Assembly (NCBI GenBank): GCA_017994635.1
Contig: JAGOKK010000002.1
Location: 1 to 60,861, forward strand
Source: Candidatus Cloacimonadota bacterium
GTDB lineage: Bacteria > Cloacimonadota > Cloacimonadia > Cloacimonadales > Cloacimonadaceae
Length of the DNA: 60,861 nucleotides
Direction: 5' to 3'
Numbering within the stretch: the stretch's first letter is position 1; the number at the start of each line of letters is the position of its first letter. Below are positions 5,119 to 50,369 of this stretch, in pieces. The position numbers and the translations under genes are program-made. A model generated the notes under the pieces. It ran no database searches and was not told the origin of the DNA. It was given only the letters and a program-made list of their open reading frames with translations.

Positions 5119-5250
5119 TCCCAACCCCATCCCATTCCATGGATTCTCACCCAAAGAGACAGGGGTAGCTGTGACAATTAAGTGCATAATTGGCAATAGC
5201 TCATCCCTGACTCCCCCTTGACGACCTTCATCACTACCTTTCACAGTCCT

Positions 5251-5290
5251 TATCAAGCCTTAACAATTAAGGCTTGATATGGGCTATACT
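5251..5290 (+). promoter_or_regulatory. 13-bp inverted repeat with -10-like box upstream of xseA
   Basis: TATCAAGCCTTAA (5251-5263), loop CAA, then TTAAGGCTTGATA (5267-5279) form a perfect inverted repeat. TATACT (5285-5290) looks like a -10 box, and TTAACA (5260-5265) inside the repeat could be a weak -35 with 19-nt spacing. No T-run follows on the plus strand, so an operator overlapping a promoter is favoured over a terminator. Confidence 0.45.
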
Positions 5291-5368
5291 ACCACTGGAT
5301 CAAGAGTCTGAAAGGGGCCAATCCAAAGTATATTGACAAAAATCGCGCATGCATTTTCATGTGCGAAT

Positions 5369-16162: not shown

Positions 16163-17554
16163 TTATAGATTTTCGATATTCTTCAATGCTTTGGGTGCCG
16201 TGGCTGGCGTGATCCCTTCCTGAGTAGCATAACCTGCCACAGGGCTACCTGTGGGTTTGCCTTCTGCATCTTCGCGGTAAAAATCCAGAGCGATGCGCAC
16301 TGTTTTGCCATCAGCTTCCACTATGTCCTTACCCTCAGCATCGGTGGCAAAAACGTTGTCATAAAGCCAGGCCAGACCGATAGCAGCAGTCCCATGCTCT
16401 TCATTCACGTTCTTACGCTTTGAACCAATGGCCAGGCGCTGATCCAGAGAAAGATTGGGGGAATTGATGCTGGAAGTTACAGAGCCTAATCGCTTTCCGT
16501 TCAGATATACTCCCCGGCCGCTCACGATCCCTTCGCTAATGATGATGAACATTCTTTTACTTACCCCTGCGGCGATCGCTTTGGCCAGGGCTGCCTTGCC
16601 AACAAAATCGTCTTTGGTCATATCCACAGCGGCATCAAAGAGTGGAGCATTAACGGGTATATGATGGGGATCATATTCCTGACCCATCAGTGGAAGACCA
16701 AAAGCACCGGCAGAGATGCGGTTTTCATCACGTCCTCCCAAGCCAACGAGGAGACCACCCAGTTCGAGCGCGCGGCTGACGATCTTCTTAAAATCTTCTG
16801 CGGCTTTTGCCACTGGGATATAGCATTCCCAGCCCCAACGATTGGTGTATCCCGTACGGCTGAAATAATATTTGTGCCCATCAAGTTCCACTTCGTTGAA
16901 GCTGAAGAAATTCATGTTCTTATCTGGATTACTGCGATTCTTCATCACGTCAGCACCATAGATCTCTTTGATCAGCTTGTAAGACAGGGGACCCTGGATG
17001 TCCACCTTGACCAGGGTATCGGAAATATCTTCTGCCATTACCTCTTCCCCGTCCTTCTTGTTGCGCATGATGCGATCTATATCAGCGATCAATTGCACCT
17101 TCTCGCTATGCTGTTCGCCCTCTCCAGTGATATCGTGTCCGGCATTGATCACCAGTATGAATTCGCTCTCCGAAAGGCGCATTAGAATTAAATCGTCCTG
17201 TACACAACCCTCTTCGTTTAGCAGCAAGGTGTATTTGCAGGACCCGATCTTCATATCCACGATGTTAGCGCCCAGGCTGCGATGAAGCAGAGTAGCGGCG
17301 TCTTTGCCCCAGAAGTGTAATTGAGCCATGTGATCGATGTTGTAAATAGCTACCTTATTCACGGCTGCGGCTTCTTCCAATACGCTGGTAAGGTAATTCA
17401 CAGCCATATCGTATTCCCCAAAGTTACTGCGTTTTACCGCCGAGACCGGGATGTTTTTGTATTTTGCCAATAGTGGAAGATACCAGTTTTCCTCCAGATC
17501 AAACAAGAAAGTCTTGCGAATGCTTTTTGGAAAGTCAAAGCCGTAGGTCTGCAT
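16163..17554 (-). CDS. GcvT-family aminomethyltransferase-like protein (long form)
   Basis: A 463-aa protein with the folate-binding GcvT/YgfZ-type fold: MAQLHFWGKDAATLLHRSLGAN, GCVQDDLILMRL, FILVINAGHD, the later DVQGPLSY-like VDIQGPLSYKLI, and the C-terminal barrel (FVGKAALAKAI, GSVTSSINSPNLS). The glycine cleavage T protein passes the aminomethyl carbon of glycine to tetrahydrofolate. This copy is about 100 aa longer than typical GcvT (near 360 aa), with an N-terminal lead and an extended tail carrying DFYREDAEGKPTGSPVAG. No gcvH or gcvP is adjacent, so another methyl- or formyl-transfer role is possible. AGGAG precedes ATG 17554. Confidence 0.8.
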   Translation of the reverse strand: MQTYGFDFPKSIRKTFLFDLEENWYLPLLAKYKNIPVSAVKRSNFGEYDMAVNYLTSVLEEAAAVNKVAIYNIDHMAQLHFWGKDAATLLHRSLGANIVDMKIGSCKYTLLLNEEGCVQDDLILMRLSESEFILVINAGHDITGEGEQHSEKVQLIADIDRIMRNKKDGEEVMAEDISDTLVKVDIQGPLSYKLIKEIYGADVMKNRSNPDKNMNFFSFNEVELDGHKYYFSRTGYTNRWGWECYIPVAKAAEDFKKIVSRALELGGLLVGLGGRDENRISAGAFGLPLMGQEYDPHHIPVNAPLFDAAVDMTKDDFVGKAALAKAIAAGVSKRMFIIISEGIVSGRGVYLNGKRLGSVTSSINSPNLSLDQRLAIGSKRKNVNEEHGTAAIGLAWLYDNVFATDAEGKDIVEADGKTVRIALDFYREDAEGKPTGSPVAGYATQEGITPATAPKALKNIENL

Positions 17555-17689
17555 GGTTATTACTCCTAATAATGTTTTTTCTTTCCATGCAAATAAATGC
17601 GCGCTTTTTGTAAAGCCATTTTTTCTATGGATTATGTCACAAGCTTCAATCTGAGGGATAACTAAGCCTACCTAACCCCTGGAGATCAT

Positions 17690-17761
17690 CCCAAGCACAT
17701 CCCAAACACAACCCAAGCCTGGCTCAGGATGTGTTTGGGATGTGCTTTGAAAGAACTCGGT
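17690..17761. repeat. 11-nt-phased inverted box array, copy 1
   Basis: Six-base boxes start exactly every 11 nt: CCCAAG 17690, CCCAAA 17701, CCCAAG 17712, CTCAGG 17723, TTTGGG 17734, CTTTGA 17745 and CTCGGT 17756. The left arm 17693-17710 and right arm 17730-17747 are a perfect 18-bp inverted repeat with a 19-nt loop. No T-run follows. It lies about 135 bp upstream of the GcvT-family start and 370 bp upstream of nqrB. Confidence 0.75.
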
Positions 17762-18068
17762 CTAGCAGTCAGTACCATAAGAGCAGATTGTGTCTTCTAC
17801 ATGGGATCAAACACGATATGATTCCACGCAACCAACGCATTTCCCGGTGATTATTACATGTTTTCTGAGGTCATCTGGTGTACACGAAACGGTGAATAAT
17901 CAGTATTAACTCCCTCTAGCCCGCCCGAATAGTAACAATTTGTACACATCAGTGATGTTATGGATGATAATGCTTTTATCATCTCACATCAAACATTGTT
18001 TTACGTATCCGTAAAATGATTGGCTTTCATATAAATGCCACTATTATATGCTAATAGGCACTTTCCTG

Positions 18069-19045: not shown

Positions 19046-19701
19046 AAGATAGCTTTTGGTATCCCATCATCTTTATGCTAATCGTAGTGATCATCTTTGT
19101 GGGTGTACTGGCCTTGATGTTTCGCATGAGCGAGGCCAAGATCGCCGCCTATGAACAGGATAGCTATCAGAAGCAGGTGCTAAAGGTTTTATCCGCCAGG
19201 ATCGCTGCGGTAGGCGATGATGACGTATCGACCCTGCTGGCAAGTTATCCTGAAAGCTACGAGCGTTTTGTGAAACCTTTCCAGATCACAGGATCGGATC
19301 GCCCAGCCTTTGCAGCAGTAGTGAATGACAGCACCGTGGCATACTGTTTTGAGATCCAGGGTAAAGGATTGTGGGGCAGCATGAGAGCCTTGGTTTCCAC
19401 TAGCCCGGATTTGACAACGATATCGGATTTTAGCATCGTGAATCAGATCGAAACCCCAGGCCTGGGCGCGCGCATTGAGGAAGACTGGTTTCTTGCCCAA
19501 TTTCGCGACCGCATCTTTGTACAAAACCCTGATGCGGATGATGTAACCCCCACTTATGAATTCATCGCTGAAACTCAGGAACCGGAGAATGAAGGACAAC
19601 TGAAACGGGTAACAGGTGCCACCATCACATCAGCCGCAGTGGTGAGAATGCTAAAAGATGAATTCAACATTATCTATGACCAGTTGCGGGAGCCTAAGTA
19701 A
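19042..19701 (+). CDS. nqrC: Na+-NQR subunit C / RnfG-like FMN-binding protein
   Basis: A 219-aa protein with one N-terminal TM (about 6-28) and a periplasmic FMN-binding domain. ETPGLGARI near residue 138 and the flavinylation motif VTGATITSAA (Thr-194) are diagnostic of NqrC/RnfG. FMN is normally attached by ApbE, which is not in the window. It overlaps the preceding stop by ATGA and ends one base into the next gene's ATG. Length is close to RnfG (about 206 aa) and shorter than Vibrio NqrC (about 257 aa). Confidence 0.88.
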   Translation: MKDSFWYPIIFMLIVVIIFVGVLALMFRMSEAKIAAYEQDSYQKQVLKVLSARIAAVGDDDVSTLLASYPESYERFVKPFQITGSDRPAFAAVVNDSTVAYCFEIQGKGLWGSMRALVSTSPDLTTISDFSIVNQIETPGLGARIEEDWFLAQFRDRIFVQNPDADDVTPTYEFIAETQEPENEGQLKRVTGATITSAAVVRMLKDEFNIIYDQLREPK

Positions 19702-20297
19702 TGAAAGCAAAAGCAATATTTATCACCAGTGCCTTCACGGAGAACTCAGTGTGGCGACAAATCCTGGGTATCTGCTCCGCCCTAGCGGTGACCAATCTGA
19801 TGAAAAACAGCTTGATCATGGGCTTGGGGGTAACCTTCTCCCTCGCCTTTGCCAATCTTACCATATCATTCATCCGCAATTGGACGCCCCGTAGCGTTCG
19901 CATGATGGTGCAGACCCTGATCATTGCCGCGTATGTGATCATTGTGGATATCTTTTTGAAAGCGAATATGCCCGAAATCAGCAAGCAACTGGGGCCTTAT
20001 GTAGGCCTGATCATCACAAACTGTATATTGATGGGCAGGGCTGAGGCTTTTGCCTCGCAAAACAACCCAATTGATTCACTAATCGACGGCATAGGTGCTG
20101 GTACAGGTTACACCCTTGTACTGCTCGCGATCTCCTTGGTGCGGGAGCTCTTTGGTTTCGGCACCATATTCGGGTACCGCGTGATGGGTTCGTGGTGGAC
20201 ACCCTGGAGCATCATGGTGATGGCGCCCAGTGCGTTCTTCATCCTGGCTATGCTGATCTGGTACATCAACACACGTTTTTATAAGGCGAAAGTATAA
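19701..20297 (+). CDS. nqrD: Na+-NQR subunit D / RnfE-like membrane protein
   Basis: A 198-aa membrane protein with six predicted TM helices. LGICSALAVTNLMKNSLIMG and GLIITNCILMGRAEAFAS are the conserved half-helix motifs of NqrD/RnfE, carrying the cysteines (ICSAL and ITNCI) that hold the intramembrane iron centre together with NqrE. Start and stop codons touch those of its neighbours, which implies translational coupling and equal stoichiometry. Confidence 0.92.
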   Translation: MKAKAIFITSAFTENSVWRQILGICSALAVTNLMKNSLIMGLGVTFSLAFANLTISFIRNWTPRSVRMMVQTLIIAAYVIIVDIFLKANMPEISKQLGPYVGLIITNCILMGRAEAFASQNNPIDSLIDGIGAGTGYTLVLLAISLVRELFGFGTIFGYRVMGSWWTPWSIMVMAPSAFFILAMLIWYINTRFYKAKV

Positions 20298-35983: not shown

Positions 35984-36102
35984 GATCTACCTCGATTATT
36001 TCGTTTATCTTCAATCTCACAGTCCCCCGATTCTGTCAAGCAGATTGTGGTCTTTTTATAAAGACTTTCATGCCTTTTAGCTACAATCTTGCCCCTTGCC
36101 AT

Positions 36103-36185
36103 CCTGGACTCAACCCAAACTCTTCTTGAACGCCTCCTGAACCGGGTTTGGGAAGAGTTCAGGAGGCCTTCTGGTTCGGCTCAGG
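36103..36185. repeat. 11-nt-phased inverted box array, copy 2
   Basis: Eight boxes at exact 11-nt steps: CCTGGA 36103, CCCAAA 36114, CTTGAA 36125, CCTGAA 36136, TTTGGG 36147, TTCAGG 36158, TTCTGG 36169 and CTCAGG 36180. The left half is C-start/A-end and the right half T-start/G-end. TTTGGG complements CCCAAA, and GTTCAGGAGGC complements GCCTCCTGAAC (36132-36142). It lies upstream of the GNAT gene and beyond the M42 gene terminator. Confidence 0.75.
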
Positions 36186-36198
36186 CTACAAGGGGGAA

Positions 36199-36228
36199 AG
36201 TAGAAAGGGCTGCCTTTTAAGGCAGCCC
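36199..36228 (-). terminator. rho-independent terminator of M42 peptidase gene
   Basis: GGGCTGCC (36221-36228 read on minus), loop TTAAAA and GGCAGCCC (36207-36214) make a perfect 8-bp stem followed by TTTCTACTTTC. It lies 35 bp past the M42 stop. Confidence 0.75.
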
Positions 36229-49077: not shown

Positions 49078-50031
49078 TTATTTGTTCAGCTTTGCGCCTA
49101 CTTTATCCAGCATATCACGGGTCATGCTATCCAGATCAAAATCCGGCTTCCATCCCCACTCATTTCTGGCTGCGCTATCGTCCATGCTATTGGGCCAGCT
49201 TTCGGCGATCTTTTGTTTGATGGGGTCCACATTGTAATTTAGAGTAAAATCGGGCATGTATTTGCGGATGGCAGAGGCGATGATCTCAGGATCAAAGCTC
49301 ATTGCGGTCACATTGAAGCAATTGCGGTGAACGAGCTTGGCAGGATCAGCTTCCATCAGTTCCACAGCGCTGCGCAGGGCATCCGGCATATACATCATAT
49401 CCAGGAAAGTGCCCTTGGCAAGGTTTGATGTGTAGCTCTTGTTCTTGATGGCTTCGTAGTAAATCTCCACTGCGTAATCAGTAGTACCGCCACCAGGCAG
49501 AGTTACGTTTGAAATGATGCCGGGGTAACGCAGACCGCGGGCATCTACGCCATATTTCAGATAGTAGTAATCGCCCAGGAGTTCACAGGCAACCTTGGAA
49601 ATACCATAGATCGTAGTAGGACGCATGATCGTATCCTGAGGTGTTTGATCCTGAGGAGTGGTGGGGCCGAAAGCACCGATGGACGAGGGAGTAAAGACAG
49701 CGCCTTTCACATCTTTCATCACTTCCAGACAGTTGAACGCGGTTTCCATATTGATCTTCCATGAGAAAGCGGGATTGGCCTCGCCTTTGGCGGAAAGCAC
49801 AGCCACTAGATTGAAGATGGTGTCAATCTTGTATTTACTAACGATCTCCTGCATAGATTTACCATCGATGGCATCCATTTTGGCGGAGGGACCACCTTCC
49901 ATCAAATCCTGAGGAAGCGGAGTGTGATTGTAAGTGGCGACAACGTTGTTCTCGCCATAAATTGCTCTGAGATAGGGTACGAGTTCCGATCCGATCTGAC
50001 CGGCGGCTCCAATGACCATGATATTTTTCAT
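49078..50031 (-). CDS. tdh: L-threonine 3-dehydrogenase, short-chain (epimerase) type
   Basis: A 317-aa extended short-chain dehydrogenase. NAD motif GAAGQIGSEL at 8-17, catalytic YxxxK as Tyr142-Lys146 in TTIYGISKVACELLG, and FLDMMYMPDALRSAVELM and EWGWKPDFDLDSM characteristic of the NAD-epimerase-like TDH group. The enzyme oxidises threonine to 2-amino-3-ketobutyrate, which a ligase (Kbl, not seen) turns into glycine. A phased repeat array lies 180 bp upstream. Other epimerases remain possible. Confidence 0.87.
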   Translation of the reverse strand: MKNIMVIGAAGQIGSELVPYLRAIYGENNVVATYNHTPLPQDLMEGGPSAKMDAIDGKSMQEIVSKYKIDTIFNLVAVLSAKGEANPAFSWKINMETAFNCLEVMKDVKGAVFTPSSIGAFGPTTPQDQTPQDTIMRPTTIYGISKVACELLGDYYYLKYGVDARGLRYPGIISNVTLPGGGTTDYAVEIYYEAIKNKSYTSNLAKGTFLDMMYMPDALRSAVELMEADPAKLVHRNCFNVTAMSFDPEIIASAIRKYMPDFTLNYNVDPIKQKIAESWPNSMDDSAARNEWGWKPDFDLDSMTRDMLDKVGAKLNK

Positions 50032-50209: not shown

Positions 50210-50281
50210 CTCAGATACACTCCAAGCTCATCTCAAACACATCCCAAGCCCGATTCGGGAGGCCCATGAGATGCTCTTTGA
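50210..50281. repeat. 11-nt-phased inverted box array, copy 3
   Basis: Boxes at exact 11-nt steps: CTCAGA 50210, TCCAAG 50221, CTCAAA 50232, CCCAAG 50243, TTCGGG 50254, CATGAG 50265 and CTTTGA 50276. The order and the switch of polarity after the CCCAAG box match copy 1 (CCCAAG, CCCAAA, CCCAAG, then the inverse set, ending CTTTGA). Long perfect arms are lacking, so the phase is better kept than the pairing. Confidence 0.7.
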
Positions 50282-50369
50282 TAATGCAGCAAGCATAAGG
50301 TAGAGAGAGAGGTCAATCTACGCCCACGAAGTAGTGAATGCACTGCAATGTTGCAGCCTTCCGTATTTC

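Follow-up and report, generated by a model that had tools for sequence, protein, structure and literature searches.

The intergenic DNA at positions 36101-36188 of the window (the whole 60,861-nt stretch that was analysed, contig C13 of the 2.12-Mb Cloacimonadota genome G000) raises the question of what a row of short boxes in an 11-nt register is for, i.e. whether it is folded as RNA or read as DNA. This array, copy 2, consists of eight ungapped 11-nt units, four in one sense followed by four in the opposite sense, with a C-rich and a G-rich end. From 36101 to 36188 the units are ATCCTGGACTC, AACCCAAACTC, TTCTTGAACGC, CTCCTGAACCG, GGTTTGGGAAG, AGTTCAGGAGG, CCTTCTGGTTC and GGCTCAGGCTA. The first four make up the left half (36101-36144, + strand) and are of the CNCYYGAAC type; the last four make up the right half (36145-36188, - strand) and are of the GTTCRRG type. 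The element is closed on the left by the C-rich TCTTGCCCCTTGCC (36087-36100), the inverted counterpart of the right end and at a position common to an ungapped alignment of 62 copies of its family (F1, below), and on the right by the G-rich CAAGGGGGAAAGTA (36189-36202), placed by the F1 alignment. An M42 peptidase gene lies on one side, with a hairpin 3' of it, GGGCTGCCTTTTAAGGCAGCCC (36207-36228, - strand), that is a probable terminator from its sequence and fold and is a neighbour outside the array. GNAT, DNA polymerase III delta', MurJ and UvrC genes lie on the other side; the relatives of this UvrC assign G000 to Cloacimonadota. The sequence-only reading had placed the array between the M42 terminator and a GNAT-holB-murJ-uvrC operon, and that operon assignment was right.

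The strict 11-nt register of the eight boxes, which that reading had also proposed, was confirmed. Within copy 2 the identity at lag 11 is 0.49, compared with ~0.25 in the window, whilst lags 9, 10 and 13 stay at the background level. As an inverted array of period 11 it scores 0.61, a value reached by none of 2000 segment shuffles (best 0.47). The right half does complement the left half in the same order, as had been noticed: the innermost left unit, CCTCCTGAACC, pairs better with the second right unit (0.91) than with its mirror partner (0.73). This arises because the units of both halves resemble each other, and a pseudoknot is unnecessary to explain it.

Scanning the window gave outliers at period 11 alone, at 17687 (score 0.73), 36101 (0.61), 5231 (0.49) and 50216 (0.49), where the shuffle maximum was 0.46; at periods 8-10 and 12-14 the scores never rose above their shuffled values. 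The three sister arrays have other units. The array at 17682-17767 (score 0.73), inverted and with period 11, is built from unit family F2 (CATCCCAAACA / TGTTTGGGATG), and that at 50216-50290 (0.48-0.49) is a degenerate member of the same family. The array at 5230-5300 (0.49, near threshold) belongs to family F3 (ATCAAGCCTTA / TTAAGGCTTGA), which resembles family epsilon (TCAAGCGTTAA) of a second genome, G001.

Family F1 was traced through G000 using copy 2 as query and then a sequence-only profile of 18 copies. It occupies at least ~75 places (146 strand matches), nearly all in the same ungapped format; with 150 of the 344 candidates scored, this tally is a minimum. Copy 2 had been described as the longest copy, which is wrong, as the ~75 copies are of equal length: 62 of them align without gaps as 4 + 4 units, and the sole clear length variant (C137:4679-4798) has exactly one additional 11-mer. 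A profile-free detector applied to 416 kb of long G000 contigs returned 29 arrays in three unit families, F1 (CCTGAACTCCA), F2 and F3; at a score of 0.55, the numbers of arrays at periods 9, 10, 11, 12 and 13 were 1, 0, 24, 0 and 0, respectively. In general an array is ~90-125 bp long and has 6-8 tandem 11-bp units, a switch of direction at a central dyad and short inverted ends. Two recent subfamilies of G000, a and b, contain near-identical arrays that have 36-110 bp of left flank in common and unrelated right flanks, from which it follows that F1 copies disperse. The left flank GTGACACCCCTTTGACAATTCCCAGGATGAGCCAGACA is conserved before the recent copies of subfamily b (L149, L150, L153, L155 and L157) and is useful for dating the spread.

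The same format was found in relatives with other sequences. G001 is a complete genome of 2,246,820 bp, of which 1.6 Mb were scanned de novo. At a score of ≥0.6 there were 66 arrays at period 11 (best period-11 shuffle 0.57) and 16, 1, 0 and 0 at periods 9, 10, 12 and 13; the final catalogue holds 78 arrays in the 1.6 Mb, all of period 11 and all inverted. Their units fall into six unrelated sequence families (e.g. CATTGCTTACC, CTCCGTAACAC, ATTCCCATATC, CCATCCTCAAC and the epsilon unit above), two of which, beta and zeta, have overlapping profile matches and were treated as one in the cross-family tests. Arrays with unit sequences of their own are also present in the same-family genomes G005, G006, G009, G021, G048, G036, G035, G038 and G042. 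Among 20 pieces sampled from other Cloacimonadota genomes, which were not sorted by family, one (G049) carried an array. In 993 kb from other phyla there were just 3 weak period-11 matches at a score of ≥0.55, and the matches at periods 9 and 12 in that DNA probably come from biased composition. As period 11 alone stands out and other phyla gave so few matches, we rejected low-complexity or chance periodicity.

Some further observations were made in the relatives. Three short contigs, G008:C233 (L164), G014:C53 (L165) and G038:C28 (L166), carry arrays nearly identical to G000 copies, reflecting either binning contamination or recent transfer. Many G036 arrays are accompanied, at a distance of 150-270 bp, by a fragment of up to 33 nt that matches the query start, e.g. 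at C62:19441-19473 beside the array at 19621-19706, a hint that the element may be larger and composite. Close to G001 arrays there are also clusters of intergenic tandem repeats with periods of 99 and 88 bp (CGCTATCATTGTGTCGCCCTCCGGGCTTTTT; ATCGCCGGGTTGAAAACCCGTCGTTAATATCTGTCGTTCCTACGGAAC), at L242:18208-18557 (~658,208-658,557) and at 887,700-887,990, and modules like them (GTGTCGCCCCTGCCGGGGCTTTT) are found in G000 flanks; that both periods are multiples of 11 is perhaps chance.

The arrays keep their distance from one another along the chromosome. In G001 the median gap between arrays is 17 kb, and one gap of <7 kb was observed where 27.7 were expected from random intergenic placement (minimum 15 in 5000 simulations). 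The same was seen between families: there was one cross-family pair at <7 kb compared with 18.9 ± 3.8 when the families were rotated independently (minimum 8 in 3000 rotations). In G000, the 21 gaps range from 7.5 to 25.3 kb (CV 0.35), with none below 7 kb where about 10 were expected. Single-family minimum distances, read off tables, were ~8.5 kb in G005 and ~6.8 kb in G036, and the units of both differ from F1. The usual spacing is ~13-20 kb and the minimum is about 7 kb. G001 also has six long array-free gaps of 35-98 kb. An array-free stretch at 729-819 kb of G001 has a low GC content (33.4%) and is probably an acquired island. Spurious repeated ORFs (SQSPQTGQVYFN, VFTLQSIKSRIET) at 993-998 kb, inside the largest array-free gap, and at 1,490-1,498 kb look like translated CRISPR arrays.

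To what extent places are conserved was judged from orthologous genes. Among same-genus genomes, arrays lie 3' of the M42 orthologue, beyond the gene's own terminator, in G035 and G042 (score 0.59 each); those in G041 (0.50) and G040 (0.48) are weaker, and the last is uncertain because period 10 scores equal to period 11. In all of these the 11-mers are unlike those of copy 2. No array was found 3' of the M42 orthologue in G036, G037, G038, G039 or G043. None of the same-genus relatives has GNAT beside M42, an adjacency seen in G000 alone. The idea that relatives would keep the phase at the same interval whilst changing the bases was thus borne out in part: it holds in G035 and G042, weakly in G041 and G040, and not in the genomes that have no array there, and the GNAT-M42 interval as such is absent in the relatives. 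The GNAT-UvrC operon of G001 has an array ~80 bp beyond uvrC. Orthologues of the window gene at 16163-17554 have an array ≤650 bp upstream in G035, G038 and G042, and those of the gene at 49078-50031 have an upstream array in G038 and, weakly, in G039; the opposite side of the tested orthologous genes (these two and M42) was array-free in almost all cases. Conservation by position across the genus is therefore partial, with several relatives having no array at a given place. For a place-by-place comparison of G000 with G001 the gene order was too broken, leaving two comparable places. Between these two genomes, adjacency is kept for 123 of the 142 gene pairs that have no array between them and for 2 of the 11 that have one; where the intergenic gap is ≥100 bp, the comparison is 15/23 without an array versus 2/11 with an array (Fisher p 0.026; a small sample). 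Arrays sit at the borders of synteny blocks, where they may be either cause or consequence of the breaks.

We considered four other explanations. As structured RNA, the transcribed arrays would fold, either into one long hairpin or with crossing (pseudoknot-like) pairs, and act as terminator, attenuator or RNase III site. Single copies do fold with good energy: as single-stranded RNA, copy 2 forms a nested hairpin at -69 kcal/mol (z -4.2). The G042 array near M42 is an almost perfect palindrome, and an 11-nt unit corresponds to one turn of an A-form helix. However, there is no covariation. Mirror pairing across 59 F1 copies was 71.6% within copies versus 72.2% between halves of different copies, and in 18 copies 72.2% of positions were paired versus 73.0% in column shuffles. 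Pairing in G001 family alpha (0.768) was below that of swapped halves (0.805 ± 0.011). The innermost F1 units even avoid pairing (z -4.3), and in 46 of 58 copies their variable position is T-T or A-A, a pattern expected of units that are read in double-stranded form, with long perfect palindromes excluded. Searching the window against Rfam returned tRNAs and the SRP RNA alone, with no match to the array, and the G001 arrays show no preference for transcript 3' ends. On the covariation, swapped-half and shuffle tests we rejected an RNA hairpin or pseudoknot, and we regard structured RNA in general as highly improbable. The first reading had left a choice between pseudoknot-like pairing and a DNA-binding array; the DNA array is supported by the strict phase in ~75 copies, the unselected pairing and the orientation-neutral context, and the RNA pairing is not supported. 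The arrays might instead be sets of transcription-factor sites, each regulating the adjacent promoter. Phased multi-site operators exist, and some arrays are in divergent promoter regions (17682 and 50216 in the window). Yet in G001 the arrays occupy 21 convergent, 33 tandem and 21 divergent intervals (expected shares from intergenic length 24, 51 and 25%), i.e. convergent as often as divergent, and even spacing is not expected of a regulon. We consider this explanation less probable again than the RNA one, and from the neutral gene context a terminator or promoter role was rejected.

If the arrays were recombination or rearrangement sites, related copies would recombine and the chromosome would be shuffled in blocks of ~15 kb. 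The low retention of adjacency at arrays and the GNAT-M42 neighbours peculiar to G000 are in line with this, but the sample is small, breaks may merely be tolerated at array positions, and neither the 11-bp phase nor the spacing between unrelated families is explained; we find it improbable. The explanation that competes most closely is a MITE-like mobile palindrome, moved by a transposase in trans and subject to spacing immunity. It would have no host function, and its spacing would follow secondarily from target immunity or from counter-selection on nearby inverted copies. The recent subfamilies a and b, with common left and unrelated right flanks, speak for it, as do the dispersal of intergenic copies in any gene context, the inverted ends, and the presence of Y1_Tnp (RAYT-type domain) proteins, encoded by one gene in G000 and by three in G001 (two of which hold a stop). 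An array lies ≤3 kb from two of the three G001 genes but from neither the third nor the G000 gene, and the association is not significant. No target-site duplication was seen in the flanks of the recent F1 copies, where there is no empty site for comparison. Repulsion between families of unrelated sequence is not predicted by sequence-specific immunity, no array pair closely flanks a transposase (there being only one G001 gap of <7 kb), arrays reappear at orthologous places with different bases, and a mobile palindrome has no need for a strict 11-bp phase in six unrelated unit sequences. Taken with these points we judge mobility without host function to be unlikely, if a serious contender.

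The reading we prefer is that the arrays are a helically phased platform for protein on double-stranded DNA, marking the chromosome about every 15-20 kb, for which we put the chances as evenly balanced. The letters differ completely between array families and species whilst the phase and spacing stay constant, indicative of a chromosome-wide DNA signal that is so far undescribed. A putative oligomerising DNA-binding protein would bind the units as double-stranded DNA, its subunits placed one helical turn apart and its assembly made symmetric by the dyad. The resulting evenly spaced nucleoprotein knots might have a part in chromosome structure or segregation, acting as domain anchors or boundaries. 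Within one genome, the several unit families could have paralogous readers or share readers of broad specificity, all with the same job; on this proposal the families avoid each other, and can replace each other at one place, because all would do that job. More tentatively, the arrays may constitute a positioning code, i.e. evenly spaced platforms recognised by their format (11-bp phase and dyad inversion) and not by any single sequence, with several interchangeable unit families in each genome and fast base turnover between species. Such a code would represent a type of bacterial chromosome-structuring element that is new and has so far been seen in one Cloacimonadota family. A tandem-repeat DNA-binding protein as reader was rejected, as scanning G001 proteins for internal repeats yielded mainly secreted proteins, TPR-like proteins and CRISPR artefacts.

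The format, phase, spacing, cross-family repulsion, base turnover, unselected pairing, neutral context and enrichment at synteny breaks are what we observed; from them we infer that a protein binds, that it oligomerises and that the complexes have a structural role. Against the platform we count that no reader protein emerged, the G001 array-free gaps of 62-98 kb, the dispersal of copies in the manner of mobile elements, as seen in the recent near-identical subfamilies, and the partial conservation of position across the genus. The avoidance of nearby copies could stem from the mode of insertion rather than from functional selection.

As a rule, the bacterial chromosome sites known to date each consist of one conserved motif. 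If the arrays are functional, they represent a signal on the scale of the chromosome that is set by its geometry, namely by spacing, helical phase and inversion, whilst the bases change, and they open the questions of what sets a domain size of ~15-20 kb and whether a protein family reads phase over sequence. If they are mobile instead, unrelated families of mobile elements are under a common control of spacing, which would also be new. Under any reading the arrays are a large unannotated share of Cloacimonadota intergenic DNA. In the open-access journal literature searched, we found no description of such arrays, neither as repeats in Cloacimonas nor as evenly spaced palindromes.

Several known systems share features with the arrays. 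CRISPR arrays, with direct repeats and unique spacers of similar length, do not match, as the units here are contiguous and their orientation flips at the dyad. Gene cassettes and attC sites were also set aside, the arrays being scattered among ordinary genes outside cassette arrays, and so were the ends of autonomous transposons, since among the flank comparisons listed there was no common transposase gene beside the arrays. The dispersal of non-coding inverted-repeat elements is a likeness to MITEs and to target-immune transposons (Mu, Tn7), from which the arrays differ in their cross-family repulsion and phased units and in that no autonomous partner was found. That spacing arises through immunity is conceivable, given MuB cis-immunity (PMC7350765). 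ERIC sequences are dispersed intergenic palindromic repeats. REP/BIME elements are dispersed intergenic palindromes with lineage-specific sequences, in tens to hundreds of copies (PMC2817692). The arrays are like REP/BIME and ERIC in being dispersed, intergenic, palindromic, lineage-specific and present in many copies, but those elements have no fixed 11-bp period, no known even spacing and no format common to unrelated families, all three of which the arrays have. The arrays do not have the form of REP elements with a RAYT: those are single palindromes of ~20-40 nt with a conserved tetranucleotide foot, whereas the arrays are 90-125 bp long with 6-8 units and the F1 alignment shows no GTAG/GAGG foot.

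The nearest mechanical analogue is ParR/parC, which likewise has tandem units close to one helical turn in length. The parC iterons of plasmid R1 are 11 bp long. In type II plasmid partition, iterons in tandem, each spanning roughly one turn of the helix, seed a regular superhelix of ParR (PMC5016525), a ribbon-helix-helix protein in the system compared here. ParR/parC differs in being one locus with direct iterons beside its own operon, whereas the Cloacimonadota arrays number ~100, are inverted and chromosome-wide, have several unrelated units and have no adjacent operon. A centromere of that type, a single locus beside parM/parR, was rejected because each genome has dozens of arrays in all gene contexts. 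The chromosome-organising sites parS, matS and KOPS are many, short and chromosome-wide, and are read as double-stranded DNA, each being one conserved motif. The arrays resemble them as many short sites across the chromosome, and they too are predicted to be read as double-stranded DNA. However, parS, matS and KOPS keep their motif, whereas in the arrays the motif is free and it is the period, the inversion and the spacing that are kept.
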